DNA from: a virus | DNA length: 42,453 nt | Direction: 5' to 3' (one strand) | IMG/VR virus record: IMGVR_UViG_3300008050_000101 | Span: 1-42,453 of that record | Shown: positions 1 through 30,153 of the stretch, one piece after another | How the letters are laid out: each line of letters opens with the position of its first letter | How positions within the stretch are numbered: position 1 is the stretch's first letter | The notes under the pieces: generated by a model | The model's input: only the letters and a program-made list of their open reading frames with translations | Database searches by the model: none | Told to the model about the DNA's origin: nothing | Position numbers and translations under genes: made by a program

Positions 1-2
1 CC

Positions 3-407
3 GCGCAGGCCACGCAGGCCGCCGAGGATCGCGCCGAGGCCACCGATGCCCTCGCGCCCGCCCCGGCTGCGGACGACAACCGGGCCGAGCTGGAGCGCCA
101 GAACGCCGAGCTGCGCAGCCGCCTGGAGCGGACCATGACCGCCGCTGGCCGGCAGGGCATGGCCGCCGCGACCCGCCAGCGCATGCAGCTGGCCGGTGGC
201 TTCAAGGGCATGGTGCAGCGATGCGCCCCGGCCCTGGGCGACACCAGCACGATTCGCATGGTCACGGAGGCCCAGTCGGACCGACGTGACGCTTCCAAGA
301 AGGAGACGCCCGACCGGGAGTCCCTGGAGGCCGACCTGCGGTCCCTCCTCGCCGCTGCCTATGCGGACGGCGTCATCACCGACCCCAACGAGCGGGGCGG
401 CTGGTAG
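3..407 (+). CDS. C-terminal part of scaffold-like head protein (partial)
   Basis: The frame is open from the left edge to TAG at 405-407, so the true start lies outside the window. The visible 134 residues begin with an Ala/Glu/Asp-rich stretch, then a likely coiled-coil (heptad-like RAELERQNAELRSRLERT), then a linker, and end in an acidic helical tail (ESLEADLRSLLAAAY). A charged, helical protein placed directly before the major capsid gene is typical of a capsid scaffold or of the scaffold tail of a head maturation protease. No catalytic motif is visible in this fragment, so the scaffold role is inferred from position and composition only. Internal ATGs such as the one at 135 are unlikely starts because coding character continues upstream. 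Confidence 0.65.
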   Translation, partial: AQATQAAEDRAEATDALAPAPAADDNRAELERQNAELRSRLERTMTAAGRQGMAAATRQRMQLAGGFKGMVQRCAPALGDTSTIRMVTEAQSDRRDASKKETPDRESLEADLRSLLAAAYADGVITDPNERGGW

Positions 408-425
408 TAGGCCCAGCCTACTATC
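403..425 (+). terminator. Hairpin overlapping the scaffold stop codon
   Basis: TAGTAGGC (405-412), loop CCA, GCCTACTA (416-423) form a perfect 8-bp stem, extendable by a G-T and a G-C pair. It overlaps the TAG stop and lies 30 bases before the capsid start. There is no T-run, so it may be an attenuator or an mRNA processing or stabilising element that raises capsid mRNA relative to upstream genes. Confidence 0.5.
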
Positions 426-453
426 TGCCTCCTCACACCGGAGAGACATTCTC

Positions 454-1449
454 ATGACCACGACTGCCTGGGCTGGCCTCGACCCCGCCCGCCGCGAGCG
501 CTTCGAGCGTGCCATCAACGTGTCCGGTGCCGGCTCGGTGCTGGTGCAGAACTTCACCAATCGCATCATCCAGCAGCTCACCATCCGTGAGCAGGGCGCT
601 GGTGCGACGCTGCCCCGAAAGCCGGGTTCCGGCTCGCAGGCGGTCATCAACCGTCGCAGCGGCAGCAGCATGACCGCCTCGAACGTGTGGGTGGCTGACA
701 CCGACAGCGTGACCGAGAGCACCGGTTCCGTCGCCCAGGCGACGTTCTCGTACGCGACCCTCGCCACGCGGGGCAAGGTCACCCGCAAGATGCGCGCCAT
801 CGGTCGGTCCTACGTGGACATTCTGGCCGAGGAGATGCTGGCGAAGGCCGACGACTGGAACGAGTCCCTGGAGTCCGCGCTGTTCATTGGTGACAGCGCC
901 GCCATCACCAACCAGATTGACGGGCTGCTGACGCTCATCAACGCTGTCTCCGGACAGGTGGTGGCGCAGACCAGCGCCGCCGGTGGTGACGACCTGTCGC
1001 TCGCAAAGCTGGACGAGACCATCGACTCGGTGAAGGGCGCGGGCAACCGTGCCGACCTCGTCATCTATGCCAGCTTCCTGGGTGCGCGCAAGCTCAACGC
1101 AGCGCTCGACAGCCGCCAGCGCTTCAACGACATGATCGAGATCAGCGCTGGCTTCCGTGTGCGCCAGTACGACGGCATCCCTGTCGTGGTCAGCACCGGC
1201 CTGGGTGACGACCTCTCGTGGAGCGGCAGCGCCGTCACCGGCCTGTCCGGTGAGTCGACCAACCCCACCACGGCCCTGGTGGTCGTGAACAAGCGGCATG
1301 TCTGGATCGAGGAACTCACCCCGATGACCATGATGCCGCTGGCCCGCGACGACAGCCAGTACGAGCAGTTCGACATCTTCGGCGACATGGCGCTCGTCCA
1401 GGCGAACACCATGGGTGGCGCGCTCCTGGGTGGTATCTCCATCGCATAA
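454..1449 (+). CDS. Major capsid protein, HK97 fold
   Basis: This 331-residue protein is the main shell subunit. It follows the scaffold-like gene and precedes a head-tail connector, the standard head-gene order. ATG 454 is chosen because a GGAGAG ribosome-binding site sits at 440-445. Sequence features fit HK97-type capsids: an N-terminal arm, a beta-rich segment around residues 70-115 (TESTGSVAQATFSYATLATRGKVTRK) like the E-loop/spine-helix boundary, a central helical A-domain stretch (SLAKLDETIDSVKGAG), a conserved GIPVVVS-like strand, and the C-terminal strand DMALVQANTMGGAL. Codon choice is slightly more varied (TCC, TCG, CGT) than in neighbours, as often seen in highly expressed genes. 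Fold assignment is by pattern; no alignment was run. Confidence 0.85.
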   Translation: MTTTAWAGLDPARRERFERAINVSGAGSVLVQNFTNRIIQQLTIREQGAGATLPRKPGSGSQAVINRRSGSSMTASNVWVADTDSVTESTGSVAQATFSYATLATRGKVTRKMRAIGRSYVDILAEEMLAKADDWNESLESALFIGDSAAITNQIDGLLTLINAVSGQVVAQTSAAGGDDLSLAKLDETIDSVKGAGNRADLVIYASFLGARKLNAALDSRQRFNDMIEISAGFRVRQYDGIPVVVSTGLGDDLSWSGSAVTGLSGESTNPTTALVVVNKRHVWIEELTPMTMMPLARDDSQYEQFDIFGDMALVQANTMGGALLGGISIA

Positions 1450-1465
1450 AGCGGCAGCCCGTAGT

Positions 1466-1501
1466 CGCGCCCACCAGCTGCCCCGGCGGCTGGTGGGCGC
1501 G
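1466..1501 (+). terminator. Strong hairpin terminator after the capsid gene
   Basis: A 13-bp perfect stem (1466-1478 with 1489-1501; arms CGCGCCCACCAGC and GCTGGTGGGCGCG) with a 10-base loop, followed by GCTGTGTTTG, which is mildly T-rich. It ends the capsid unit, and a P1 promoter restarts transcription about 35 bases further on. Confidence 0.75.
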
Positions 1502-1533
1502 CTGTGTTTGGGGAGCAGTTAGGCGCAGACTCA

Positions 1534-1550
1534 TGCGGGGTGATACAGTC
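1534..1550 (+). promoter_or_regulatory. P1-family (late) promoter
   Basis: TGCGGGG-TGATACAGTC, an extended -10 (TGA-TACAGT) found almost unchanged at 6186 and 13341, each time shortly before a late operon. No good TTGACA-like -35 is visible. The transcription start would be near 1556, just before the GCAGGAGG ribosome-binding site. Confidence 0.6.
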
Positions 1551-1568
1551 CACCGCAGGAGGCACCCC

Positions 1569-2087
1569 ATGCCAGCGCTGTCCACGACCCCGCCGCCCGA
1601 AGGCACGTACCGCTTCGTCCTGCAACACGCTCGGTTCGTGGCTGTCCCAGGCCGCACGCACCCCGTGCGGCTGGTGGGCTACGAGGAGTCCCACGAGTCC
1701 ATCGGTGTGGCCCTGCCTGGGCAGCCCATGCGACACACCGTGTTTGCCCGCAAGCGTACCACGGTGGAGCGCGCCGTGCGGGATGGCTGGGTGGACGTGA
1801 CCAAGCCCTGGGAGCAGTACCTGCTGGCCCAGCGCCCGAAGGCCAGCACGCCCGCCCAGGCTTCCGTGCTGGCGGTGCTGACGGAGGACTGGCAGGACAA
1901 GGCCAGCATCGTGGCCGCCAGCCACATCACCGACACCGAGTGGCGCACCACCATCAAGCTGCTGGAGGAGCGCGGGCTGGTGGAGCTGAACCACGGCCCG
2001 CGCCAGCGGAAGGCCGCCAGTAACCGGAGTTTCCGGTATAGGCGTGGACCGCGCTACGCCGACGCCCTGGTGGTGGCCGGTGGCTGA
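1569..2087 (+). CDS. Winged-helix-like protein, first gene of head-tail operon
   Basis: This 172-residue protein starts at ATG 1569, with GCAGGAGG at 1555-1562 as ribosome-binding site. The N-terminal half (residues 10-75) is beta-rich and resembles a small-molecule- or peptide-binding module (YRFVLQHARFVAVPGRTHPVRLVGYEES cut short here). The C-terminal half resembles a winged helix: helix (ASVLAVLTED), turn, recognition-like helix (TDTEWRTTIKLLEERGLVEL), then a basic wing with several Arg and Lys. That suggests DNA or RNA binding. It is the first gene after a P1 promoter and overlaps the connector gene by 8 bases. It could be a late regulator or a virion-associated DNA-binding protein. Function unproven. 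Confidence 0.6.
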   Translation: MPALSTTPPPEGTYRFVLQHARFVAVPGRTHPVRLVGYEESHESIGVALPGQPMRHTVFARKRTTVERAVRDGWVDVTKPWEQYLLAQRPKASTPAQASVLAVLTEDWQDKASIVAASHITDTEWRTTIKLLEERGLVELNHGPRQRKAASNRSFRYRRGPRYADALVVAGG

Positions 2088-2661
2088 GCTGACCTCCGCA
2101 GCCCGCATCAAGCGGGTGCTGGGAATCCCGGCAGCCATCACCCTGCACGACACGTACCTGGGCGAGCTGGCCGACGCCGTGGACACCCTGGTGCTGGAGT
2201 ACTGCGGGCAGCCCACGCTGACGTGGGGCAGCGGCTTCTCGGACAAGTTCGACGTGGAGCTGAACGGCATGAGCGAGGTCATGCTGCGCCGGTTCCCGGT
2301 GGAGGAAGTGACCGCCGTGCTGGATGCCGGCAGCACCCTGAGTGCCGACAGCTGGTACCTCGACAGCCGCACCGGGGCCGTGCGCCTGACCGGTGCAGGC
2401 GCAGCCTTCACCCAGGGGAAGCAGAAGGTGGAGGTGCAGTACACGGCTGGACACACCGCCGCCAGCCCTGGCCTGAACACCCTGGCCCACGCTGCCAGCG
2501 TGTGGGCCACAGCCCTGTTCAACGCAGGCCGCCACGCTGGCCTGCGCAGCGAGGGCGCTGGGAGCTACCGCTACTCCGTGGACACCGATGGTGTGCCTGC
2601 GCCTGTTCGCGCCATGCTGTCCAGCTACATTCGCATCATTCCAAGGGACAGCCAGCCATGA
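2080..2661 (+). CDS. Head-tail connector (adaptor) protein
   Basis: This 193-residue protein resembles the phage head-tail connector (HK97 gp6 / SPP1 gp15-like) family: an N-terminal helical part beginning AARIKRVLGIP with an internal helix LADAVDTLVLEYCGQ, then a beta-rich middle (FPVEEVTAVLDAG, TGAVRLTG, KVEVQYTAGH) and a C-terminal helix. The beta-strand series WYLDSRTGAVRL...VEVQYTAG is characteristic. It would dock on the portal ring and form the channel to the tail. The GTG at 2080 is preferred because it overlaps the previous stop (translation coupling); a more upstream start would lie well inside the previous gene. Its stop TGA overlaps the next ATG. Confidence 0.75.
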   Translation: MAELTSAARIKRVLGIPAAITLHDTYLGELADAVDTLVLEYCGQPTLTWGSGFSDKFDVELNGMSEVMLRRFPVEEVTAVLDAGSTLSADSWYLDSRTGAVRLTGAGAAFTQGKQKVEVQYTAGHTAASPGLNTLAHAASVWATALFNAGRHAGLRSEGAGSYRYSVDTDGVPAPVRAMLSSYIRIIPRDSQP

Positions 2662-2927
2662 GCACCACCGTCATTCGCCGCCTTGTCGGCCCGCAGGACA
2701 AGCGTTTCACCACCATGATCTGCCCGTGCGGCGAGAAGGTGGTAGCCACCCCCGACCCCGGCAGGCTCGGCTACATGCGCGCCACGGTGCACACGCAGGA
2801 GGCCCTGGCATTCTGCCTGTCACGTGGGTGGACCAAGGTGCCTTCGGCCCCGAAGGCCGTGGCTGCGCCGAAGAAGCGCGCCCCGAAGAAGCGCGCCCCG
2901 AAGGTCAAGCCCAGCGGGGACAAGTAG
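2658..2927 (+). CDS. Small basic protein with CxC motif and Lys/Ala repeats
   Basis: An 89-residue protein starting at ATG 2658, overlapping the connector stop by 4 bases. The N-terminal 60 residues contain a CPCG pair (MICPCGEKVV) but no second Cys pair, so a full zinc finger is not evident. The tail is made of a tandem 15-base DNA repeat around 2870-2905 that encodes APKKR units, giving a strongly basic, disordered end that could touch DNA or an acidic partner. Position next to connector genes suggests a head or neck role, or a control protein, but nothing specific can be assigned. Confidence 0.7.
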   Translation: MSTTVIRRLVGPQDKRFTTMICPCGEKVVATPDPGRLGYMRATVHTQEALAFCLSRGWTKVPSAPKAVAAPKKRAPKKRAPKVKPSGDK

Positions 2928-2929
2928 CC

Positions 2930-3946
2930 ATGAACGTGCTGGTGACAGGCGGCTGCGGCTTCATCGGCCAGGAGCTGGTGCAGCAGTTGGTGGACCGCTA
3001 CGGTGCCAGCGCCGTGTGGGTGCTGGACGACCGTACTCGCGCAGCCACCGGCTGGTATCGCGTGCAGGAGCTGGGCGTGCGCCTGGAGCGGGGCACCGTG
3101 CAGGACGCCGAGCTGGTGCACCGCATGCTGCAGCTGCAGGTGCCCGACGTGGTCATCCACTGCGCTGCGCAGTCCCACGTGGACTTCAGCCTGCAGGAGC
3201 CCAGCGCCACGTGGATGGCGAACGCCATCGGCACCCAGGTGGTGGCCGAGGCGTGCACCGTGTGGGGCGTGCCCCTGGTGTACTGCAGCACCGACGAGGT
3301 GTACGGCAGCACGCCCGTAGACGAGGACGGCAAGACGAAGCAGGTGCGGGAGGATGCGCCGCTGAACCCCTCCAGCCCCTACAGCGCCAGCAAGGCCGCA
3401 GGCGAGCACGCTGTGCGCGCCATGGGCCACAGCGCCGGGCTGCAGTACGCCATCACGCGGGGGAGCAACGCGTGGGGGCCGCACCAGCTGGGCGAGAAGC
3501 TGGTGCCCCTGGCCTGTGCCCTGCTGCAGCAAGGCAGCGCCGTGCCCCTGCATGGCGGTGGCCACCAGCTGCGCCAGTGGGTGCACGTGGCCGAGTTCGC
3601 CGATGCCCTGCACACAGTGGCGTCAGCCCTGACGGTGGGCAAGGGCGCAGGACAGACCTTCAACATCGCCGGGCCTGAGCTGCTGTCGGTGCGTGAGCTG
3701 GTGCTGGCCCTGGCCGCCCAGGCTGGCGTGCCCGAGGAGAAGGCCGTGTGGTCCAGCGAGGACCGTCCAGGCCAGGACGAGGCCTACCACGTCAGCGGCG
3801 GTGCCATGCACCGCACCCTGGGCTGGCGTGCGCGCCGCAAGATCAGCAGCAAGGCAGAGATGAAGGCGCTGCTGGAGCACTACGCCGAGACCAATACCAC
3901 CGCGCTGGTGGCCGAGTACGTCAGCGCACCGAGGACCACCGCATGA
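2930..3946 (+). CDS. RmlB-like NAD-dependent sugar-nucleotide dehydratase/epimerase (extended SDR)
   Basis: This 338-residue protein is a full-length extended short-chain dehydrogenase. Residues 1-13 hold the NAD-binding TGGCGFIG (GxxGxxG). S120-T-D-E-V-Y-G126 is the signature of dTDP-glucose 4,6-dehydratases, with Asp and Glu as acid/base residues. Tyr151-x3-Lys155 (SPYSASKAA) is the SDR catalytic pair. ITRGSNAWGPHQ and RQWVHVAEFADAL match the sugar-nucleotide end of RmlB. It should convert an NDP-hexose to a 4-keto-6-deoxy form; the exact base and sugar cannot be read. It sits between connector and methyltransferase genes in a structural operon, an unusual place. An RmlD-like reductase lies at 26839. 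UDP-sugar epimerases are the main alternative. Confidence 0.85.
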   Translation: MNVLVTGGCGFIGQELVQQLVDRYGASAVWVLDDRTRAATGWYRVQELGVRLERGTVQDAELVHRMLQLQVPDVVIHCAAQSHVDFSLQEPSATWMANAIGTQVVAEACTVWGVPLVYCSTDEVYGSTPVDEDGKTKQVREDAPLNPSSPYSASKAAGEHAVRAMGHSAGLQYAITRGSNAWGPHQLGEKLVPLACALLQQGSAVPLHGGGHQLRQWVHVAEFADALHTVASALTVGKGAGQTFNIAGPELLSVRELVLALAAQAGVPEEKAVWSSEDRPGQDEAYHVSGGAMHRTLGWRARRKISSKAEMKALLEHYAETNTTALVAEYVSAPRTTA

Positions 3947-4404
3947 CCGCCATCCTGGGACTATTGCCCACCGCCGAAGACCTGACCCCCGACGTGCAGC
4001 AGGGCCTGCACTACGCCCCGAGCGTGCTGGTGCTGGACGCCGAGCCCGGAGCTGCCCTGCCCGCCACTGGCCGGGGCAACCCCGTGGCCGCTGCTGGCAC
4101 CAGCGGCCTGCTGGCTGGCCCGGTGGCCGTGCTGTGGGGCAAGGATGCCGCCCTGGCCCGCCAGCTGGCAGGCGCGCCCAGGCGCACCGTGCTGGCCGTG
4201 GTGGCCAGCAAGGCCAGCCGTCGCACCGTGGCGGCCCTGCGTAGGTTGCAGGCCGCCGGTGTGACCGTGCACCTGCTGCACTGCCCCGAGCACCCCGTGC
4301 GGGTGCTGCAGGACGGTGACACCGTGCGGCTGGAGCAGCACGCTGGCAGCTGGCAGCCCCTGGCTGCTGCGCTGCCCGAGCCCGCCACCCCTGCCCCCGA
4401 GTAG
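3943..4404 (+). CDS. Unknown 153-residue protein in sugar/methyltransferase cluster
   Basis: ATG 3943 overlaps the upstream TGA (ATGA). The protein alternates hydrophobic strands and helices: SVLVLDAEP (about residue 27), VAVLWGKDAALARQLA, TVLAVVASKASRRTVAALRRLQAAGVTVHLLHC. This beta-alpha-beta pattern looks like a Rossmann-type or phosphoesterase-like fold, but without a recognisable catalytic motif. The end is Pro/Ala-rich. Being sandwiched between a sugar-nucleotide enzyme and a methyltransferase with overlapping reading frames suggests a part in the same pathway. No family was recognised. Confidence 0.65.
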   Translation: MTAILGLLPTAEDLTPDVQQGLHYAPSVLVLDAEPGAALPATGRGNPVAAAGTSGLLAGPVAVLWGKDAALARQLAGAPRRTVLAVVASKASRRTVAALRRLQAAGVTVHLLHCPEHPVRVLQDGDTVRLEQHAGSWQPLAAALPEPATPAPE

Positions 4405-4409
4405 AACTG

Positions 4410-4931
4410 ATGCACGGCCAGATCATGGGCTTCCTGCAGGGCAGGAAGGAGCACCACCCTGGGCATTTCGTGCCCGGTGTGCGCGTGCTGGAACTGGGCA
4501 GCCGGGACATCAACGGCAGCCCCCGCCAGCTGTTCGACCGCCCTGGCTTCTACCTGGGCATCGACTGCCACGGTGGCCCCGGCGTGGACGTGGTGGGCGT
4601 GGTGCACGAGGTGCTGGCCAGCCGCAAGCTGGACCTGCTGGACGTGGTGGTGAGCACCGAGATGCTGGAGCACGACCCGTACTGGCAGCAGACGCTGCAG
4701 GCTGCCGTGCCACTGCTGCGCCCTGGTGGGCTGTTCATGCTCAGCTGCGCCAGCCGCTGCCGCCCCGCGCATCACTTGGAGGACAGCCCGGTGCCTGGGC
4801 ACTACGGTGGCCTGGACCCCGCCGACCTGCTGCCCGTGCTTGAGCCCATGCACCTGTGGACCAGCCTGGAGGGCTGGCTGGTGCGCAACGACTTGGACAC
4901 CCTGGTGGCCGGGGTGGTGGGGGACGGGTGA
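4410..4931 (+). CDS. SAM-dependent methyltransferase (class I)
   Basis: The 173-residue product has the class I layout: motif I VLELGSRDING near residue 30 (SAM-binding glycine loop), an acidic residue after beta 2 (YLGIDCHGGPGVDVVG), motif IV-like DVVVSTEMLEHDPYWQQTL near residues 85-103, and LLRPGGLFMLSC near residue 110. TEMLEH and LRPGG are hallmarks of the Methyltransf_11/23 group that modifies small molecules and sugars. The neighbouring RmlB-like gene makes a sugar or glycan target reasonable. The ribosome-binding site is weak (GAG at 4398), fitting coupling to the preceding gene 6 bases away. Confidence 0.8.
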   Translation: MHGQIMGFLQGRKEHHPGHFVPGVRVLELGSRDINGSPRQLFDRPGFYLGIDCHGGPGVDVVGVVHEVLASRKLDLLDVVVSTEMLEHDPYWQQTLQAAVPLLRPGGLFMLSCASRCRPAHHLEDSPVPGHYGGLDPADLLPVLEPMHLWTSLEGWLVRNDLDTLVAGVVGDG

Positions 4932-5557
4932 TCAGCAGCAGCGCGAACCGATACTTCACCTTCTACCAGCGCACAGCCTACGTGATGGACGCGGTGGCTG
5001 CAGCCGCTGCGCTGGTGCTGGACCGGGCCATCGGTGACGAGTGCTTCTTGCAGGTGGACGTGGCGGGCGGCACTACCGGCAGCGGCACCGTGACCATCAC
5101 CGGCACCGACCCTGACGGGAACGCCCAGGTGGAGGCCCTGGTCTTCACCGAGAACGGCACCATCCAGACCACCGGCAGGTGGCAGGCTGACACCACGCCC
5201 ACGGTGGCCACCACCGGCCTGGACGACGAGGCCACGGTGGCCACGGTGGCCATCAGCACCATCAGCGCGGACGGGCAGGCGCAGTTGCAGTTGGTCAGCA
5301 AAGCCACAGCCCGCCCCGTGCTGGTCAGCACCCTGGGCGGGGCCGCCTGGAAGGCCGCCCGGCAGGGCACGCAGGAGGCAGGCCGGGCCTATTTTGACGT
5401 GGACTACGAGGAGGTCTGGGAGCCGGACGTGGGGTACGTCGCCATCGAAGACGCCACCAGTGACGAGTGGACCGTGCAGGCCGTGGAGGAAGTGCGCGTG
5501 GGCTTCGGCGTGCGGCCCCGGCACTGGCGGCTGACGTGCCAGCGGTACGACACCTGA
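4928..5557 (+). CDS. Beta-rich putative virion protein
   Basis: This 209-residue protein starts at GTG 4928, overlapping the methyltransferase TGA. The middle is Thr/Gly/Ala-rich with alternating strands (GTVTITGTDPDGNAQVEALV, TVATVAISTIS), typical of Ig-like or head-decoration and neck proteins. The C-terminal part (YVAIEDATSDEWTVQAVEEVRVGFGVRP) is also strand-rich. It is the last gene of this late operon. A head-tail stopper, decoration protein or fibre part are all possible; no motif decides. Structural nature is inferred from composition and position. Confidence 0.6.
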   Translation: MISSSANRYFTFYQRTAYVMDAVAAAAALVLDRAIGDECFLQVDVAGGTTGSGTVTITGTDPDGNAQVEALVFTENGTIQTTGRWQADTTPTVATTGLDDEATVATVAISTISADGQAQLQLVSKATARPVLVSTLGGAAWKAARQGTQEAGRAYFDVDYEEVWEPDVGYVAIEDATSDEWTVQAVEEVRVGFGVRPRHWRLTCQRYDT

Positions 5558-5566
5558 AGAAAACCC

Positions 5567-5595
5567 TTGCGCCTGTACCCGCCCTGTGGTTAGCT
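5567..5595 (+). promoter_or_regulatory. P2-family promoter for accessory gene
   Basis: TTGCGC (5567-5572), a 17-base spacer containing TGTACCCGC, then TTAGCT (5590-5595) preceded by TGG (extended -10). Same layout at 27561, 28834, 30102 and 11422. GAAGAAAA just upstream may act as an UP element. Confidence 0.65.
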
Positions 5596-5620
5596 ACTCA
5601 ACAGCACACAGGAGCAGCAA

Positions 5621-6097
5621 GTGACCGACACCTTCGACCTGACCCACGCTGACGCCCCCGACAGCACCGTGTACGACACCAGCTTCGGCAGAATGCGCAG
5701 CCGCCCGAGCACCCTGGCCGACCGCCAGCAGTGGCTGTACAGCCAGCGCCGCGCCTGGAAGCGCGCCTTGGAGGCAGACCAGCGCGTGGCCCACCAGCGC
5801 GAGCAGTACCGAGCCCTGCGCAGCCAGGGCGTGGCCATGCGCTGCCGCTACCGCACCACCGTGCACGGCAGCACCTGGGCCGTGGTGCGCACCGCCGCCG
5901 ACTTCGACGCAGCCTGCGAGACGCAAGCCCTGCGCGCCCTGTTCGACCGCGACCCGCAGGGCTACAGCTACCAGTGCGACAAGCCCCGCGCCGGCTGGGA
6001 GTACGTGCGCGCCGCCCACCGCGTGGTGGCCCTGGCCACCGACGACGCCGAGGCCGAGGCCGGCATGCAGTGCCGCGCTGAGTACCGCGCCGCATAG
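5621..6097 (+). CDS. Self-contained accessory gene (moron-like), unknown function
   Basis: The 158-residue product starts at GTG 5621, preceded by the conserved AGCACACAGGAG leader at 5603, which places the Shine-Dalgarno correctly. The first 25 residues are acidic and flexible. Residues 30-75 are highly basic and helical (DRQQWLYSQRRAWKRALEADQ), followed by a beta/alpha segment with three Cys. No known domain was recognised. It has its own P2 promoter and a hairpin terminator (6123-6148), so it is transcribed apart from the late structural genes on both sides, and is likely expressed at another time, probably early. Confidence 0.7.
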   Translation: MTDTFDLTHADAPDSTVYDTSFGRMRSRPSTLADRQQWLYSQRRAWKRALEADQRVAHQREQYRALRSQGVAMRCRYRTTVHGSTWAVVRTAADFDAACETQALRALFDRDPQGYSYQCDKPRAGWEYVRAAHRVVALATDDAEAEAGMQCRAEYRAA

Positions 6098-6122
6098 CCC
6101 CCGCAGCCCCCCCGCACCGCCC

Positions 6123-6148
6123 GCGCCCAGGCCCGCCAGCCTGGGCGC
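6123..6148 (+). terminator. Hairpin terminator of accessory gene
   Basis: Perfect 10-bp stem GCGCCCAGGC / GCCTGGGCGC with loop CCGCCA, followed by TGTTGCGTGTG. It lies 25 bases after the stop at 6097 and 40 bases before a P1 promoter. Confidence 0.75.
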
Positions 6149-6170
6149 TGTTGCGTGTGGTGCGGGGTAC

Positions 6171-6200
6171 GTGACGAGCGGGTTGTGCGGTGATACAGTC
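6171..6200 (+). promoter_or_regulatory. P1-family (late) promoter
   Basis: TGCGG-TGATACAGTC at 6186-6200, identical over 15 bases to 13341-13355. GTGACG at 6171-6176 lies 17 bases before TACAGT and is the only P1 copy with a TTGACA-like -35. Confidence 0.65.
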
Positions 6201-6239
6201 GCCGGGCTAACCGCGAACCCACGCCCAGGAGGCGACCCC

Positions 6240-9158
6240 GTGGCCCGACCGAACCCCGCCCTGCCCGACGACCTGCAGGCCACCGTGATGATCCCCACCG
6301 TGGGGGACCCGGCCCTGGTGCTGCCCTGCGTGCAGCGCTTGCTGGAGACCACCGTGGTCACGCACTGGCAGCTGATGCTGGTGGTGAACCCTGTGCCAGC
6401 CACTGCACCGTCGCTGCCCATGCTGCGGCAGCAGGTGGAGGCCACCGTGCAGGCGTTCAACGTGGCGTGCGACGGTCACGTGGAGCTGCACTGGCTGGAG
6501 CTGCCAGCGGCAGCCGGCTGGACCGGTGCGGTGAACGCAGGCGTGCGCTGGCTGCTGCAGGAGGGCATGCCTGGGTGCGTGGTGGTGATGAACGACGACG
6601 TGCTGGTGACGCCCAGCTGGCTGGCCCGTATGGGCAACGCCCTGGACCCGCAGAAGGTGCTGATGCAGGGCGAGGTCGGCATGCACGGCAACGACGCCCC
6701 GCCCCGCGACCCGGCTGGCTTCGGGCGCGTCGGCATGGTCGGCCCCTGCTCTAACGAGGTGGCCGGTGTGCAGAAGGTGCAGGCCCCCGAGGTGCGCATG
6801 GCGAACGGGGCCGCGTTCATCAACGACGGTGCCACCATGCTGGACCGCTTCAGCGCGGACTTCACCAAGAAGGCCAACCCGTACCCGATGGCCGCCGCGT
6901 TCCTGTCGGGGCTGTGCACCCTGTACCGTCGCGAGTGTCTGCTGGACCTGCTGATGGAGCGGGACGAGGGCTGGTGCCTGCTGGACCCCGTGTACGGGAC
7001 CGGCGGCTACGACGACAACGACGCATGCCAGCGTGCGGCCCTGGCCGGCTGGCGCAAGGTGGTCGCGACCACCGTGTACGTGCACCACCTGGGCCACCAG
7101 ACCCTGGACGTGCATTTCCCCGAGGCCCAGCGTGGGCTGGCGAACGCGCCGACCTACCTGCGGGCCTGGGAGCACGCCACCGACAAGGACCACCGGCTGG
7201 TGGCCGTGTACCGCGTGGCCTGGGAGGTGCCCTGGGACGTGCTGATGCTGGGCAAGAGCCTGCGCGCCGTGGCCCAGCTGGCCGACGCCGTGGCCCTGCT
7301 GGCCACCAGCAGCCCGGCAGCGGTGACCAGCTCACCCGCGTGGAAGGCTGCCATGGGCCAGCTGCCCCCGCCCGAGGCCCAGCTGGTGGCTGCGGCTGCC
7401 GACGCTGGCGACGACCACGACAAGCTGACCGCCGCCCTGGACCTGTACCTGCTGGCCGTGACCGGTGATGCCGGGCACCCCGTGGAGGTGGCCGCTGGCG
7501 TGTGGGACGGTGAGTGGAACGAGCGCGACGAGCGTAACGCCGCCATCCAGCTGGGCATGCAACTGCGGCCCGACTGGCTGCTGAGTGTGGACCACGACGA
7601 GGTGCCCGAGGACCGCATCACCCGCGCCCACGTGCAGCGCCTGATGCGCCACCCGGACCCGTCCGTCACGCACTACGACATGGGCTGGCTCAACCACTGG
7701 GACAGCCCCCGGCTGATGCGTGTGGATGCCCCCTGGGCGCACGGCTACAGCAGCAGCATGCGCGGCTTCCGGCTGTGGCGGGTGCAGCACCCGGCCTTCC
7801 AGCAGATCCTGGGCGGCAACGAGAAGGGGCTGCACTGCGGCAACGTGCCCGACGCCGGCGAGTCGTCCAAGCGCGTAGCCGCCTTCCGGTTCCGTCACTA
7901 CGGCTACCTCCGCCCAGAAGACCGCCTGCGGAAGCACAACCGGTATCAGCGGCTGGACCCCGAGCCCGACGCTGTGCTGACCCAGGCCGCCATCAATCCG
8001 GTCGGCGGGTACAGCCATCTGGTCAACGAGGAGGGCATGCAGATGCAGCCCTACCACGCGGCGAACGGCATCGGCCTGACCATGCTGTGGCACGCTGGCG
8101 AGAGCCTGCACGACCTGATGCGCTGGCTGGACCTGACCTACGGCATGGTGGACCAGTGCGTGCTGGTGTGGACCGGCCCCGAGGACACCGCACCCAGCCC
8201 CGACATGCAGTACGTGGCGCAGCGCTTCGGGGCGCGGTGGACCCACCACCCGATGGCTGACGACCTCGCAGCAGCCCGGAACGCTGGCGTGGATGCCCTG
8301 CGCGAGCTGGGCGTGACGTGGTGCTGGGTCATGGACCCCGACGAGCACCTTGCCCCGCCGTTCCCCACGCTGGTGGCCATGCGCCGCATGGCCGAGGTGA
8401 CGGACAGCTGGGCGTGGATGTTCCGGTTCCGCAACCACCGCCCAGACGGTCAGTTCAACTGGAGCGAGAACACCCGCCTCTTCCGCCTCGCGGACGGCGT
8501 GCTGCGGTTCGGCAACCGGGTCCATGAGACCCTGGAGGCCGGGCTGGCCCAGCTGGGCAGCATGGGCATCCACCCGAACGTGCGCTTCGCGCCGTTCCAC
8601 GTGGAGCACTTCGGCCTGAACGGCGGCGATGCTAAGACGCAGCAGAAGCTGCGCCGGTACACCCGGCTCCTGGCCCTGCAGCTGCAGGACGACCCGCTGC
8701 GCAGCCCCGGTGCCTGGGTGAGCCTGGGCCTGCAGTACGGCAACGACGGGCTCTACGACGAACAGTGGCAGTGCTACGAGATGGCGCTGCGCACGGCAGG
8801 GCACGGCTATCTGCCGTTCCGCGAGGCAGCCCTGTACCATCTGCGCAAGGGACGGCACCTGATGGCAGCCGCCCACGAGCGGCTGAGCCCGGCCCACCAG
8901 CTGCACGGCCCCGTGGGCCAGCTGGTGGACGTGTTGTCGAAGCAGGCCCCTGACCAGCCCCTGCTGGGCAAGGCGCGGGGCGGTGGGGCTGTGCCCCCTG
9001 ACGTGGACCTGCCCGCGCTCCTGGCCCACGCGCACGCCACTGCCGAGGGGGCCGGGCTGGTGCAGCCCACGGCCAGCGTGCAGCAGTCCCTGGCTGCGCC
9101 TGCGCTGGACGCTGCCCCCGCACCGGGCCATGATGGTGCGAAGGAGGAGCGCGACTGA
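6240..9158 (+). CDS. Giant multi-domain glycosyltransferase (three GT-A-like modules plus helical tail)
   Basis: This 972-residue protein starts at GTG 6240 behind CCAGGAGG (6225-6232). Module 1 (residues about 13-330) opens with ATVMIPTVGDP, has the metal-binding VVVMNDDVLVTPSWL near 115-128 and a GGYDDNDACQRA acid motif near 255: a GT2 transferase. Module 2 (about 420-600) has NERDERNAAIQLG and LLSVDHDEVPEDRI (DHDE near 452). Module 3 (about 615-800) has DDLAAARNAGVDAL and WVMDPDEHLAPPF (DPDE near 698). Residues 815-890 resemble TPR helices; the tail is Pro/Ala-rich. Three acidic metal sites suggest sequential sugar additions. It opens a late operon whose next genes are tail-neck proteins, so the target may be a virion protein, but host surface glycans or DNA are alternatives. 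Confidence 0.85.
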   Translation: MARPNPALPDDLQATVMIPTVGDPALVLPCVQRLLETTVVTHWQLMLVVNPVPATAPSLPMLRQQVEATVQAFNVACDGHVELHWLELPAAAGWTGAVNAGVRWLLQEGMPGCVVVMNDDVLVTPSWLARMGNALDPQKVLMQGEVGMHGNDAPPRDPAGFGRVGMVGPCSNEVAGVQKVQAPEVRMANGAAFINDGATMLDRFSADFTKKANPYPMAAAFLSGLCTLYRRECLLDLLMERDEGWCLLDPVYGTGGYDDNDACQRAALAGWRKVVATTVYVHHLGHQTLDVHFPEAQRGLANAPTYLRAWEHATDKDHRLVAVYRVAWEVPWDVLMLGKSLRAVAQLADAVALLATSSPAAVTSSPAWKAAMGQLPPPEAQLVAAAADAGDDHDKLTAALDLYLLAVTGDAGHPVEVAAGVWDGEWNERDERNAAIQLGMQLRPDWLLSVDHDEVPEDRITRAHVQRLMRHPDPSVTHYDMGWLNHWDSPRLMRVDAPWAHGYSSSMRGFRLWRVQHPAFQQILGGNEKGLHCGNVPDAGESSKRVAAFRFRHYGYLRPEDRLRKHNRYQRLDPEPDAVLTQAAINPVGGYSHLVNEEGMQMQPYHAANGIGLTMLWHAGESLHDLMRWLDLTYGMVDQCVLVWTGPEDTAPSPDMQYVAQRFGARWTHHPMADDLAAARNAGVDALRELGVTWCWVMDPDEHLAPPFPTLVAMRRMAEVTDSWAWMFRFRNHRPDGQFNWSENTRLFRLADGVLRFGNRVHETLEAGLAQLGSMGIHPNVRFAPFHVEHFGLNGGDAKTQQKLRRYTRLLALQLQDDPLRSPGAWVSLGLQYGNDGLYDEQWQCYEMALRTAGHGYLPFREAALYHLRKGRHLMAAAHERLSPAHQLHGPVGQLVDVLSKQAPDQPLLGKARGGGAVPPDVDLPALLAHAHATAEGAGLVQPTASVQQSLAAPALDAAPAPGHDGAKEERD

Positions 9159-9679
9159 TGGGTGCTTCGGTGCAAGGTGCGGCCCTGGTGGCGTACAACC
9201 TGCGGCAGCTGCAGGGTCAGCAACTGGAGAAGGCGACCGAGCTGGCGCTGGGCGAGATGGGCACCGTGGCCCTGGACGCCGTGCGCCGGAACGTCACCCG
9301 CCGGGACCACACCCTGGCCGCCCTGGCCGGGATGGGCCACCCCTACGCCCGCCGCCATGGCAGCATCCGGGTTCACGCTGGCGAGACGCACGTGGTGCAC
9401 CAGCACAGCGGGCGGCTGGCGCGCAGTCTGCACGGTCAACTGGTGCGCCGCCCTGGTGGCGGTGGTGCGCACTGGAAGTACAGGATCGACTTCAGCAAGG
9501 GGCCGCCGAGGTACGTCGAGCACGTCATCAAGGGCACCCGCGTCATGCTGGGCCGCGACGTGCTGGGCGCATCGGTGTACACACCCACCGTGCGGAAGGG
9601 CATGTTCAAGGCGGCTGTCGTGGTGTTCGGCCAGCAGCTGCGCACGGGGGCCGGGCTCCGGTTCCCGTCAGGCGGGTAG
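9158..9679 (+). CDS. Tail completion (neck) protein, HK97 gp10-like
   Basis: A 173-residue protein whose ATG overlaps the glycosyltransferase stop (TGATG). The pattern fits minor tail/neck proteins of the gp10 family: N-terminal helix LEKATELALGEMGTVALDAVRRN, a Thr/Arg-rich link, then HSGRLARSLHGQL, a typical TGRLRxS-like element, and a beta-rich end (WKYRIDFSKGPPRYVEHVIKGTRVML). Such proteins sit between connector and tail tube. The following gene is a tail terminator, the usual order. Confidence 0.65.
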   Translation: MGASVQGAALVAYNLRQLQGQQLEKATELALGEMGTVALDAVRRNVTRRDHTLAALAGMGHPYARRHGSIRVHAGETHVVHQHSGRLARSLHGQLVRRPGGGGAHWKYRIDFSKGPPRYVEHVIKGTRVMLGRDVLGASVYTPTVRKGMFKAAVVVFGQQLRTGAGLRFPSGG

Positions 9680-9682
9680 GCC

Positions 9683-10111
9683 ATGTCGTTCGCTGACACC
9701 CAGCAGCTGGTGGCGGTGCTGCGGCACACCCTGCTGCAGAACGCCGAAGTGAAGGCCATCGTGGGCGGCAGGGTGCTGGGGGCACACCCCCGCACCCCCG
9801 ACGAGCGCACCGTGGTGTACCCCATGGTCATCACCGAGCTGGACGGCGGCAGCGTGAGCCCCACCAGCACGTTCCAGGCGCAGACGATGTACCTGTACGC
9901 CTACAGCCGGGGGAGCCAGGGCGAGGCACACCGGCTCTACGACGCCTGCTTCGCCGCGCTGCAGCACAACCTGCTGCGCCGCGACGGCGTCACGGTGGCG
10001 GGCTACGCCATGGAATCACAGCGCCCCGAGTCGGGGTGGAACGAGCAGGCCCGCGCTTACTGGTCGCAGGGCCTGTGGACGCTGCGCGCCAGCTACAGGA
10101 GCAGCAGCTGA
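9683..10111 (+). CDS. Tail terminator / tail completion protein
   Basis: The 142-residue product begins with MSFADTQQLVAVLRHTLLQNAEVKAIVGGRV, matching the N-terminal helix and small domain of DUF3168/gpU-like tail terminators, then YPMVITELDGGS, an internal strand-rich core (FQAQTMYLYAYSRGSQGEAHRLYDACFAAL) and a final LWTLRASYR strand. This fold ends the growing tail and joins it to the head. Position after a gp10-like protein and before tail tube supports it. Its stop overlaps the next ATG. Confidence 0.7.
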   Translation: MSFADTQQLVAVLRHTLLQNAEVKAIVGGRVLGAHPRTPDERTVVYPMVITELDGGSVSPTSTFQAQTMYLYAYSRGSQGEAHRLYDACFAALQHNLLRRDGVTVAGYAMESQRPESGWNEQARAYWSQGLWTLRASYRSSS

Positions 10112-10302
10112 TGCGCAGCCAGGACTGGAAGCAAGCGGCACCCAACACTCGCAAGCGCGGGCCAGCCACCACCGTGCGCTGCAGCCAGGGCCACCCTGTG
10201 GCCCTGGTGCGCGGCGACATCGACGTGCGCACCGCCACGTTCACCGAGCAGGCGTGCACCGCATGCGGTGAGGCCGTGCGCGTGCCCCGGAGCAACGCAT
10301 GA
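10111..10302 (+). CDS. Small zinc-finger-like protein
   Basis: A 63-residue basic protein starting at ATG 10111 (TGATG overlap with the upstream stop). CSQGHP and ACTACG form a C-x3-H / C-x2-C arrangement that could bind one zinc ion. It is followed directly by a second zinc-ribbon gene with an ATGA overlap. It is too small for further assignment; nucleic-acid binding or a chaperone role in tail assembly are possible. Confidence 0.6.
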   Translation: MRSQDWKQAAPNTRKRGPATTVRCSQGHPVALVRGDIDVRTATFTEQACTACGEAVRVPRSNA

Positions 10303-10673
10303 GCGAGCCGACTGCGGACCAGCGCCTGGGCGCTGTGGAGGCTGCCTGCATGGAACTGCAGGACGCCGTGGGTGCCATGCACCAGACGGTGCAGCTGCTG
10401 CTGCTGCAGCACAGCGCCGAGGTGGAGGAGCAGGCCAGCCCCGGCAAGATGCGCGACAGCGTGTGGGCCTGCACCAGCTGCGGGGCAAAGCTGGGCGTCT
10501 ACAACGCTGAGACGGACGAGCTGCGGCTGCGCTACAAGGAACTCGCCGTGTACATGACCCCCGGCCAGGGGGGCAGTATCAAGGTGCCATGCAGGCGCTG
10601 CGCCGAGCTGAACACCCTGGAAGACACTCGCAACACTGCCCAGGTAGCCGAGGCCGCCGCCGCCGGGAAGTAG
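10299..10673 (+). CDS. Com-like zinc-ribbon protein with N-terminal helix
   Basis: This 124-residue protein has a long N-terminal amphipathic helix (residues 5-50, coiled-coil-like, LQDAVGAMHQTVQLLLLQHS) and then a zinc ribbon WACTSCGAKLGVY ... IKVPCRRCAELNTL with C-x2-C and C-x2-C pairs about 35 residues apart. The ribbon resembles phage Mu Com, an mRNA-binding translational activator, in the C-x2-C-x-K-L and the ending C-x2-C-x3-N. In this position it may control late translation, but many Com-like ribbons in phages have unknown roles. Confidence 0.6.
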   Translation: MSEPTADQRLGAVEAACMELQDAVGAMHQTVQLLLLQHSAEVEEQASPGKMRDSVWACTSCGAKLGVYNAETDELRLRYKELAVYMTPGQGGSIKVPCRRCAELNTLEDTRNTAQVAEAAAAGK

Positions 10674-10690
10674 ACTGCACCCGGCTGGCG

Positions 10691-10700
10691 TGATAGGCTC
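10691..10700 (+). promoter_or_regulatory. Divergent P1-like promoter before tail tube gene
   Basis: TGATAGGCTC keeps the TGATA start and the final TC of the P1 core TGATACAGTC and lies 70 bases before the tube gene, the same distance range as other P1 sites. Three core positions differ, so confidence is modest. Confidence 0.4.
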
Positions 10701-10771
10701 CACCTGACATGCCGCCCTGACGCTGGACAGGCGCACGCGGTGCCCGCACTAACCAGCTGCTGGAGGCACCT

Positions 10772-11323
10772 GTGCCCTATAACGTACCCACCGTCACCAC
10801 GAACGACATCAGCTTCGGCCCCGCCGTGCTGTACATGGGCGTGGCCGGTGCCACGCCCACCACCGACGTGGGCTCCATCACCGAGGACGGCGTGGCTGTC
10901 GAGGTGACGAGCGAGAAGCGCACCATCACCCAGGGCAACCCGAAGATCGCCCTGTACACCTTCACCCAGGCCCAGGCGGTCATGGCGAAGGTGACCGGCA
11001 TCGAGTGGAACTTCGACCGGTTCGCCGACGCCCTGGGCGCTGGCAACACCACGGTCAGCGGTGCCGCTGAGACCTTCAGCTGGGGAGGCGACCCCATTGT
11101 CACCCGGCTGGCGATGCACATCGAGCATTACATGGCCGTCACGGGCAACACGATGAACGTGTACCTGTGGGAAGTCGTCAGCGAGAGCGGGCTGTCCCTG
11201 CCGTTCGGCCACGACGAGCACAGCTTCGAGTACAGCTATCAGGCCCAGCGGGTCACCACGGACTGGAACAGCGTGGCGCTGCCCGCCACCGAGCAGCTGA
11301 TGCGGGTTGACCGCACGCTGTAG
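10772..11323 (+). CDS. Major tail tube protein
   Basis: The 183-residue protein starts at GTG 10772 with TGGAGG at 10761-10766. It is beta-rich with the expected order: N-terminal FGPAVLYMGVAGATPTTDVGSITEDGVAVEVTSEKRTITQGNP, a pattern common in tail tube subunits (small-loop then EKRTITQG strand), a helix FTQAQAVMAKVTGIEWNFDRFADALG, and C-terminal strands ending in LMRVDRTL. It lies between the tail terminator and tail chaperones, interrupted by two accessory genes. It assembles as stacked hexameric rings around the tape measure. Confidence 0.75.
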   Translation: MPYNVPTVTTNDISFGPAVLYMGVAGATPTTDVGSITEDGVAVEVTSEKRTITQGNPKIALYTFTQAQAVMAKVTGIEWNFDRFADALGAGNTTVSGAAETFSWGGDPIVTRLAMHIEHYMAVTGNTMNVYLWEVVSESGLSLPFGHDEHSFEYSYQAQRVTTDWNSVALPATEQLMRVDRTL

Positions 11324-11346
11324 CTCCTGGCCGCAGACGTACACCC

Positions 11347-11380
11347 CACGGGCTGGGCATCTAAGGGTGCCCGGCCCGTG
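11347..11380 (+). terminator. Hairpin terminator after tail tube gene
   Basis: 13-bp stem (11347-11359 with 11368-11380, one G-T pair) around loop TCTAAGGG, 24 bases after the tube stop and 42 bases before a P2 -35. No T-run follows. Confidence 0.65.
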
Positions 11381-11421
11381 CTGTGCCTGGAGGGAATCTC
11401 CAACTAAGTGGAGATTGACGG

Positions 11422-11450
11422 TTGCACAGTTAACCGCAGCATGGTTAGCT
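11422..11450 (+). promoter_or_regulatory. P2-family promoter, apparently leaderless
   Basis: TTGCAC (11422-11427), 17-base spacer, TTAGCT (11445-11450) preceded by TGG. Only 6 bases separate the -10 from ATG 11457, so transcription would start at or next to the start codon. Confidence 0.65.
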
Positions 11451-11456
11451 GTGGTC

Positions 11457-12689
11457 ATGGAAACGAACACCACCCCCGCCGCCCGCCCCCTCAACTGCTG
11501 CCCCTGCTGCGGCGACGACTGGGACTACAGCGCGGTGAGCGAGGCGCACTGGATGCTGGACGTGCGCACCAGCGGCACCGACTGCTGGGCCGAGCTGCAC
11601 CCCTGCTGCCAGGGCATGGCCGACGAGCTGGAAGCCCACGGCTACGAGCTGGCCACGGGCCGCACGGTGGCCAGCGTGGTGCGCGAGCTGACCGGGCGCG
11701 ACGTGCTGGCAGTGGAAGAAGACGGCACCGGCACCGTGGTGTGCCGCCTGCGCACCGTGGACCCCACCCAGGTGCTGGCCGCCACCGACGCCCACGGCAA
11801 CCGGAAGGCCAAGAGCCCGAAGGGCTGGCAGACTGAGGTGTTTGCGGACGTGGACGAGAACCACCGCCACCACCCCGCCCCGCAGGGCTGGAAGTTCGGC
11901 GTGGCCGTGTACAACGGTGGCGTGAAGGTGGGCGTGGCCACGGTGGGCCGCCCGGTGAGCCGCGTGCTGCAGGCCGCCCAGCCCCACACCCTGGAAGTGA
12001 CGCGGGTGTGCACCTGGGGACCCGCCCCCCTGCGCAAGAACGTGGTGAGCAAGCTGTACGCCGCAGCCGCCGAGCGCGCCCGTAGCATGGGCTACCGCAA
12101 GCTCATCACGTACACCATCCACCACGTGGAGAACGGGCGCAGCCTGCAGGCCAGCGGGTGGGTGAGCTGCAACGTGAGCGACGGCGGCAGTTGGAAGTGC
12201 GAGGCACGCCCCGACGCCAGCGAGGCCGCGCCCACGAACCAGAAGGTGCGCTGGGAGCGCGGCCTGAGCAAGAGCGCGGGCAAGGCCGTGCGCCGCACCG
12301 CCGTGGCGCTGCCCGCCGCCGCCCCTGTGGACCACGCCGCCCTGGCCACCACCGCCGCGCAGGGCTGGACCGACGACCAGCTGCTGACCGCCATCGACGG
12401 GCACAGCGCGTACCTGCCCCACGCTGGCAAGGCCGAGCGCGCCCAGCTGCTGGCCGAGGGCCGGGCCTGGGCCGCCGTGTACCGCGCCCGCACCGCCCAC
12501 CTGCTGGCCGCCGTGGCCCAGGGTGGCGAGCTGCTGCTGACGGACCTGTTGGCCGCCGGTGCCCCCGCCCGGTGGGCACAGCCCAGCAGCTGGGACCGCA
12601 CCGGTGCAGCGTGGTGTGCCGCCCAGGCCATGGGCCTGCAGGTGGTGCGGTTCAACCGCCGCCACAGCGTGGTGCTGGCCAGCAAGTAG
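11457..12689 (+). CDS. XF1762-like (GNAT-fold) protein with Cys-rich N-terminus
   Basis: This 410-residue protein starts at ATG 11457; no Shine-Dalgarno fits between promoter and start. Residues 10-50 are Cys-rich (CCPCCGDDW, then C-W and CC), possibly zinc-binding. Residues about 125-245 match the XF1762 family of phage proteins with an acetyltransferase-like fold: HRHHPAPQGWKFGVAVYNG, VGVATVGRPVSRVLQ, LEVTRVCTWG, SKLYAAAAERARSMGYRKLITYT and a final GRSLQASGWV. The last 150 residues are helical with no known domain. It is an accessory gene with its own P2 promoter and flanking hairpins inside the tail operon. The biochemical activity of XF1762 proteins is not known to me. Confidence 0.75.
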   Translation: METNTTPAARPLNCCPCCGDDWDYSAVSEAHWMLDVRTSGTDCWAELHPCCQGMADELEAHGYELATGRTVASVVRELTGRDVLAVEEDGTGTVVCRLRTVDPTQVLAATDAHGNRKAKSPKGWQTEVFADVDENHRHHPAPQGWKFGVAVYNGGVKVGVATVGRPVSRVLQAAQPHTLEVTRVCTWGPAPLRKNVVSKLYAAAAERARSMGYRKLITYTIHHVENGRSLQASGWVSCNVSDGGSWKCEARPDASEAAPTNQKVRWERGLSKSAGKAVRRTAVALPAAAPVDHAALATTAAQGWTDDQLLTAIDGHSAYLPHAGKAERAQLLAEGRAWAAVYRARTAHLLAAVAQGGELLLTDLLAAGAPARWAQPSSWDRTGAAWCAAQAMGLQVVRFNRRHSVVLASK

Positions 12690-12694
12690 CAGCG

Positions 12695-12755
12695 CGCCAC
12701 CAGCCGCCGGAACAGCTATAAAGCGGCCTGCGGTCTGCGTTTACAGCTGGTGGCG
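12695..12755 (+). terminator. Long-loop inverted repeat after XF1762-like gene
   Basis: CGCCACCAGC (12695-12704) pairs with GCTGGTGGCG (12746-12755); the 41-base loop contains a smaller GC hairpin. GTGTTT follows. It ends just before the -35 of the next P2 promoter, so it probably acts as a terminator separating two accessory genes. Confidence 0.5.
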
Positions 12756-18941: not shown

Positions 18942-19964
18942 ATGGCTGTCGTCTTCGCGTGTGGGTGGGAGCTTGCTGCACCCCTGCCGGACTACCAGAA
19001 CAGCGGCTGGACGGCTGCTGGCACGCCCGACCCACGGGAGGGAGGCACGTTCGCCCAGCACCCGGACGGATACGGTGGCGGCGAGCGCAGCCTTGCACTG
19101 CCCACGAACAGCGCCTGGATGGAAGCTGCCCAGGTGTTCTCCGCGCCCAGCAACTGCTGCGTCAACACTATGGTGCGAGGCACGGGTGTCTACGTGACAG
19201 ACGGCACCGTGCTGAAGCTGCTGGACGACAACGGCGACACCGTGGCCGAGGTGAAGTCGGTGGACGCGGGGGCCACCAGCAGGCTGGCCCTGCTGCACGC
19301 AGGCACCACCGTGGGCACCAGCGCTGCACGGCTGGCTGCGAACCAGTGGCACCGGCTGGCGGTCACCTTCCAAGACGTGGCCAGCGTGGCGCACTGCAAG
19401 CTGTACATGGACGGCCAACTGCGCGTGAGCGGCACCGCAGCGCTCACCACCCTGGCCACGGTCACCGGCCTGCGCTGGGCCGGGGCCACCACCGGCACCA
19501 TGTTCCACGACCACACGGTGGTGCATGACAGCCTGCCAGAAGCCACCGTGGCCACCTGGGTGCAGGGCCTGCGCCCGAACGCTGACGACATCAACGGGGC
19601 GTGGACCCCGAACCCCGCCGGCAGCACGTGGTCGCGTGTGGTCGATGCGAACGACGGTCTGGAGATGCAGACCACCGCTTCCAGCGTGTTCAGCGTGAAC
19701 CTGGACAACCGGAGCGCGGTTAACGCTGCGTGGCTGGCCCCCGAGGTGCACGCCGTGCAGGTCTGGTGCAACGGCAACGGCGACGGCAGCCTGGATGACG
19801 GGCAGGCCCAGCTCAACCTGGGTGCCAGCGTGGTCACCGGGACTACGATGTCCATGAACCCAGGCGGCTCGCTGGCCTGGGCCGTGGCACCCGATAAGCC
19901 CGGCGGAGTCGGCTGGGCCGCCACCGACCTCGACAACATCAGCACCGGCTACAGCGCCGCATAG
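18942..19964 (+). CDS. Tail protein with LamG/concanavalin-like domain
   Basis: This 340-residue protein follows the tape measure by 13 bases; AGGGAG at 18931 supports ATG 18942. The centre has LamG-type sequence: NQWHRLAVTFQDVASVAHCKLYMDGQLRVSG (shown in part), LTTLATVTGLRWAG, with the typical W-H-x-L-x-V-T-F and Y-x-D-G-x-L pattern of sugar-binding jelly-roll domains. The start FACGWELAAPLPDY and the Ser/Thr/Gly-rich end are typical of tail-tip proteins. In this slot many siphophages carry the distal tail protein, sometimes with a carbohydrate-binding insert. Host glycan binding is plausible but inferred. Confidence 0.65.
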   Translation: MAVVFACGWELAAPLPDYQNSGWTAAGTPDPREGGTFAQHPDGYGGGERSLALPTNSAWMEAAQVFSAPSNCCVNTMVRGTGVYVTDGTVLKLLDDNGDTVAEVKSVDAGATSRLALLHAGTTVGTSAARLAANQWHRLAVTFQDVASVAHCKLYMDGQLRVSGTAALTTLATVTGLRWAGATTGTMFHDHTVVHDSLPEATVATWVQGLRPNADDINGAWTPNPAGSTWSRVVDANDGLEMQTTASSVFSVNLDNRSAVNAAWLAPEVHAVQVWCNGNGDGSLDDGQAQLNLGASVVTGTTMSMNPGGSLAWAVAPDKPGGVGWAATDLDNISTGYSAA

Positions 19965-19972
19965 GAGCCGGG

Positions 19973-30046: not shown

Positions 30047-30083
30047 GCAGCTGCGGCGGGTGCGCCCCTGGGCCGCCCGCTGC
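30047..30083 (+). terminator. Imperfect hairpin after MoxR gene
   Basis: GCAGC (30047-30051) with GCTGC (30079-30083) and GGCGG (30055-30059) with CCGCC (30073-30077), separated by small bulges. It starts right after the stop and is followed by ACTGTTT. Confidence 0.45.
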
Positions 30084-30101
30084 ACTGTTTGCGATTAGCG
30101 C

Positions 30102-30130
30102 TTGCAAGTGTACCCCGCACGTGGTTACGT
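30102..30130 (+). promoter_or_regulatory. P2-family promoter for VWA gene
   Basis: TTGCAA (30102-30107), 17-base spacer with TGTACCCCGC, TGG-TTACGT (30125-30130). Upstream TTTGCGATTAG matches 27549. The AGCACACAGGAG leader follows at 30137. Confidence 0.65.
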
Positions 30131-30153
30131 GCCCACAGCACACAGGAGCCACC

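Follow-up and report, generated by a model that had tools for sequence, protein, structure and literature searches.

Gene organization of the head–tail region

We analyzed the 42,453-base virus record IMGVR_UViG_3300008050_000101 (hereafter, the window; 70% GC), in which all recognized genes lie on the plus strand and a set of sugar-nucleotide, methyltransferase, and glycosyltransferase (GT) genes is embedded among the genes for the virion head and tail. The major capsid protein (MCP) gene (454–1449), which is HK97/SU10-like (phrog_212, E = 6.4e-13; Pfam SU10_MCP, 1.4e-5), is followed by a head–tail connector or adaptor (2080–2661; phrog_442, 1.1e-16; start inferred), an RmlB-type NDP-glucose 4,6-dehydratase (2930–3946), a small protein (3943–4404), a class I S-adenosylmethionine-dependent methyltransferase (4410–4931), a neck- or head-closure-like protein (4928–5557), an open reading frame that is probably coding (5621–6097; GC at third codon positions, 0.93) and for which no homologue was found in relatives, a large GT (6240–9158), and, directly 3′ of the latter, an HK97 gp10-like tail or neck gene (9158–9679) that precedes further tail genes. 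The gp10-like gene has no Pfam match and was named from its position and conservation. The dehydratase, small-protein, methyltransferase, and GT genes are thus enclosed by the MCP and connector genes on one side and the tail genes on the other; the gaps are short or the start and stop codons overlap, and several adjacent genes of the cluster share a few bases. This gene set, originally predicted by a model from the sequence of the window alone, recurs in synteny in dozens of related contigs, which excludes chance; both the set and its coordinates are confirmed.

A three-module glycosyltransferase

The GT consists of 972 amino acids (aa), arranged as three GT-A modules followed by a helical, tetratricopeptide-repeat-like C-terminal domain. 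Its GTG start at 6240 was chosen by alignment with relatives, and 6171 is a possible alternative. Pfam identifies only module 1 (4.6e-10). The acidic motifs of the modules are NDD at aa 118–120 (codons 6591–6599), DHDE at aa 451–454 (7590–7601), and DPDE at aa 699–702 (8334–8345), and the acidic residues of all three show little or no variation among 25 aligned proteins, down to 23–27% identity. Structure prediction, which had been proposed as a check on the three modules, gave a confident model (predicted local distance difference test [pLDDT], 86.9; predicted template-modelling score [pTM], 0.85) with structural matches to GT-A enzymes, in line with the three-module architecture of the original prediction.

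Profile matches centred on module 3 and the helices after it were obtained with GmaR (5.5e-15) and SunS (1.2e-12), which we take, from their entry names, to modify a protein and a peptide, respectively. When the model was used as a Foldseek query, SunS was again retrieved (2.1e-11), as were polypeptide GalNAc-transferases. The module 3 region therefore resembles both enzymes by profile and SunS by fold, although the window GT differs from both in having three GT-A modules. No transmembrane segment was detected in the GT (maximum 19-residue hydropathy, 1.35). A search of a phage collection returned no match to the GT or to the window MCP, and bacterial and archaeal genomes searched with a GT profile contained only distant GTs (21–33% identity), in metagenome-assembled genomes.

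Conservation and co-divergence in related viruses

The relatives, dozens of IMG/VR records collected with MCP and GT searches, range from 31 to 72% GC. Among 38 GT loci, which include several near-identical contigs and hence fewer independent lineages, 35 have the homologue of the 4928–5557 gene as the nearest upstream neighbour of the GT, and in most the gp10-like gene follows; in one relative (L081), an insertion of ~2.6 kb lies between the neck gene and the GT. The wide GC span suggests that the GT goes with the head and neck genes rather than with one host type. Pairwise distances between GTs were correlated with those between MCPs (r = 0.91, 16 records), a value reached in 0 of 2,000 permutations, and the same correlation for true structural genes was 0.92 for the connector and 0.87 for the major tail protein. 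The order RmlB, small gene, capping enzyme, neck gene, GT is conserved, and RmlB and capping genes are a trait of a larger, mostly higher-GC group.

When named relatives were sought, the MCP of a divergent member weakly matched those of Synechococcus phage S-CBS2 and Leptospira phage LE4, neither of which has an annotated GT near its MCP.

Sugar-nucleotide enzymes

The dehydratase was correctly recognized in the original prediction: it matches Epimerase (3.4e-50) and TIGR01181 (2.1e-67), its nearest solved structure among PDB profiles is RmlB (1.3e-61), and its GxxGxxG, TDE (aa 121–123), and YxxxK (aa 151–155) motifs are invariant across six aligned phage sequences. Its score is below the TIGR01181 equivalog cut-off (227.5 against 365.1 bits), so we call it RmlB-like and regard the donor nucleotide as not proven.

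The RmlD-like 4-ketoreductase (26839–27558), a short protein of the short-chain dehydrogenase/reductase type, matches RmlD_sub_bind (5e-13) and shares 52–53% identity with its relatives; GGxGRLG, STDY, and YAAAK (YxxxK) are invariant in three sequences. It reaches 48.3 bits against a TIGR01214 cut-off of 224.05, with the best stretch in the first half only, and is therefore designated RmlD-like only. The enzyme assignment of the original prediction was thus upheld, whereas its placement among interleaved head–tail genes was not: the gene lies 17 kb downstream of the cluster, past the tail genes and adjoining RavA/ViaA-like genes. Some relatives have further enzymes of the pathway: of 18 records, 6 encode RmlC and 2 an RmlA-like enzyme. 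Judging from their intact catalytic motifs, the RmlB-like and RmlD-like enzymes and the GT appear to be active.

In-frame TGA codons, attributable to decay or sequencing error, were observed in two relatives, once in an RmlD-like and once in a Mom-like gene (L044 1161–1874, minus strand; G019:C1 2899–3558). A small protein with a Lys/Pro/Ala-rich tail precedes RmlB (window 2658–2927; L071 4625–5098).

A swappable tailoring slot

The 3943–4404 protein had been described as Rossmann-like, a label that found no backing, as no Pfam, PHROG, NCBIfam, or PDB profile matched it. Its homologues in relatives (22–33% identity) nevertheless sit between RmlB and the tailoring slot, and it can be characterized as a small, positionally conserved, fast-evolving protein. 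A profile comparison with the sulfotransferase-like family described below was negative.

The methyltransferase proposed at 4410 was substantiated by a match to phrog_32762 (1.5e-23), together with a weak Pfam match and a weak profile match to UbiG O-methyltransferases. The slot that it occupies, between the small gene and the neck-like gene, holds a methyltransferase in the window phage and many relatives and a sulfotransferase-like P-loop protein in others, including the near relatives L002 (truncated upstream) and L004; in L068 and L074–L076, both genes are present together. In the sulfotransferase-like family, five of six members weakly match PF13469 (best, 6.8e-8; the first-listed member is below the cut-off), and the GxQR[SA]GT loop is conserved. 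GDSL hydrolases and other sugar genes occur close by in divergent members. A single site at which methyl- and sulfate-type enzymes take each other's place is the pattern expected of a glycan-capping step, and the replacement or supplementation of the methyltransferase suggests that the theme common to the lineage is the capping of a sugar chain rather than methylation itself.

A candidate glycan acceptor

The predicted structure of the 4928–5557 protein (pLDDT, 89.2) resembled phage neck and cement proteins weakly, with no match at E < 0.001. It has an N-terminal Thr/Ser-rich beta domain; in 20 homologues, Ser and Thr make up 20–37% of this domain and about 6–20% of the C-terminal part. Its constant partnership with the GT and this domain weakly favour it as the acceptor.

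Probable glycosylation of the phage particle

We consider it probable, on these genomic grounds, that the window phage and its relatives encode enzymes that attach a capped oligosaccharide containing a deoxysugar to one of their head or neck proteins, and the most likely target is the phage's own particle rather than DNA or the host. The fixed head/neck position of the GT, its co-divergence with the capsid, its resemblance to protein GTs, the lack of a membrane anchor, and the presence of DNA modification elsewhere in the relatives make this the best-supported interpretation. In such a pathway, the RmlB-like and RmlD-like enzymes would make an NDP-6-deoxyhexose, for example dTDP-rhamnose or a sugar related to it; RmlA and RmlC would come from the host in the case of the window phage and from the phage itself in some relatives. 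The soluble three-module GT would then act during assembly, building a short chain on a protein of the head or neck. Module 3 and the helical C-terminal domain, given their resemblance to SunS and GmaR, probably link the first sugar to this protein, and the chain may be extended by modules 1 and 2. The methyltransferase, or the sulfotransferase-like enzyme in sister phages, would cap the chain, and the acceptor may be the MCP or the 4928–5557 protein. The original prediction of a particle carrying a methylated deoxysugar is thus supported in part: the particle is the favoured target, and methylation fits the window phage; as a general description it needs amendment, because in relatives a sulfotransferase-like gene stands in place of the methyltransferase or alongside it.

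Several observations weigh against particle glycosylation. No obvious Ser/Thr-rich C-terminal tail is present in the MCP or the major tail protein, and neither RmlA nor RmlC was found in the window. In the low-GC members, the GT was detected but neither RmlB nor a capping gene was, indicating that the deoxysugar is not universal. The best Foldseek match of the GT is the Escherichia coli K4 chondroitin polymerase (K4CP), a polysaccharide polymerase, and 3 of 11 GTs, all divergent, weakly match Pfam TAGT (best, 3.9e-6). Finally, no cultured member of the lineage was found. The likeness to K4CP lies in the tandem GT-A domains; however, K4CP has two such domains and the window GT three, and the identity is ~10%. 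Weak similarity of this kind between GT-A families is not surprising, and only a few divergent head GTs show it towards TAGT.

A more specific form of particle glycosylation would be a dedicated glycosylated neck, in which the Thr-rich domain of the 4928–5557 protein receives a short chain from the GT and the chain is methyl- or sulfate-capped from the swappable slot. We put this forward as a tentative and rather doubtful proposal; if true, it would imply that the glycan of a phage particle can be sulfated and that a conserved glycosylation step is tied to assembly.

The TAGT matches could also mean that the GT and sugar genes hypermodify phage DNA, placing sugars on a modified base as a protection against restriction. 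DNA hypermodification does matter in this lineage. TET/JBP genes occur in 3 of 21 records (L126 6203–11756, L127 3716–9280, and L042 9750–13999), in loci that also hold ParB-like, TAGT-like, radical SAM, and cupin genes, or an amino-acid:DNA transferase (ADDT), and a Mom-like gene is found in the window (11451–12689; phrog_1384, 1.9e-22), where it follows the major tail protein gene and precedes further tail genes. Relatives lack it at this site, but two of them have Mom-like genes at other locations. However, the TET/JBP relatives have a gene of their own for this purpose near TET, either a TAGT-like gene (two loci; 27.4 bits against a cut-off of 27.5 in the one scanned) or, in the third, ADDT. 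The head-cluster GT is a separate and much larger gene at a separate locus, and it is present with or without TET, including in the records that have a Mom-like gene instead; no TET/JBP was found in the possibly incomplete window. The position of the GT, its resemblance to SunS and GmaR, and its sulfotransferase-like partner also suit protein glycans better. By gene content, DNA hypermodification looks separate from the head-cluster GT, and we regard a role of the cluster in it as unlikely.

O-antigen-modifying glycosyltransferases are encoded by phages, and the enzymes might similarly change glycans on the surface of the infected host, for instance as a block to superinfection; a GtrB-like PHROG is matched by 7 of the 25 homologues of the GT (best, 3.8e-11). 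The absence of a transmembrane segment from the GT speaks against such a role, no GtrA-like partner was noticed, and the GT gene is fixed among head and neck genes and tracks the MCP over very different GC contents, which makes host modification improbable. It is very unlikely that the sugar genes are loosely related cargo, with the dehydratase and reductase serving general host metabolism and the GT acting on a small molecule: the RmlD-like gene lies outside the cluster and went undetected in some relatives, and AvpGT, solved with Ara-A, is among the structural matches of the GT, but the gene order from RmlB to the GT is conserved and divergence is correlated.

If particle glycosylation is correct, our results suggest that a widespread uncultivated phage lineage, whose genomes differ greatly in GC content, inherits the sugar coat of its particles vertically and as a core trait, and that such a coat is not an accessory of a few mycobacteriophages. 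The cassette offers a compact three-step GT, together with interchangeable capping enzymes of the methyl and sulfate types, for tests in vitro. Antibody evasion is a documented benefit for mycobacteriophages; for these environmental phages it is without support, and any advantage of glycosylation would be conjectural.

Comparison with known virion glycosylation systems

Virions of mycobacteriophage Che8 and its relatives are glycosylated on the capsid and tail tube (Freeman et al. 2023, as described in PMC11256854 and PMC12619734). In those accounts, as here, the glycosyltransferases are phage-encoded; however, the GT genes of the F1 phage Maravista are described there as near the 3′ end of the genome, whereas the window GT lies between the connector and tail genes. 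A GT and a methyltransferase have been interpreted likewise in Rhodococcus phages (PMC13313380). Chlorovirus PBCV-1 encodes a rhamnose-containing capsid glycan with terminal O-methylation, and its A064R protein combines two rhamnosyltransferase domains with a methyltransferase (PMC7019647). The window system, known from genes alone, similarly pairs a multi-domain GT with a methyltransferase; in contrast to the fused enzyme of this eukaryotic algal virus, its methyltransferase is a separate, replaceable gene.

Other features of the window

Late promoters had been ascribed to the cluster, but a scan of positions 1–12700 found no sigma-70-type promoter (0.4 expected by chance); other promoter types may serve the phage. 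An Rfam scan yielded nothing useful. A pattern scan alone identified a terminator-like hairpin after the MCP gene on the plus strand (1466–1501), with a 16 bp stem containing 13 GC pairs. Tail-region proteins at 18942–23461 include a sub-threshold LamG/ConA-like domain and, at 19973, a protein in which Asp-box-like repeats were seen by eye, and they may bind host glycans. A pair encoding a RavA-like MoxR ATPase and a ViaA-like VWA protein (28886–31662) is conserved in relatives L038, L041, and L048.

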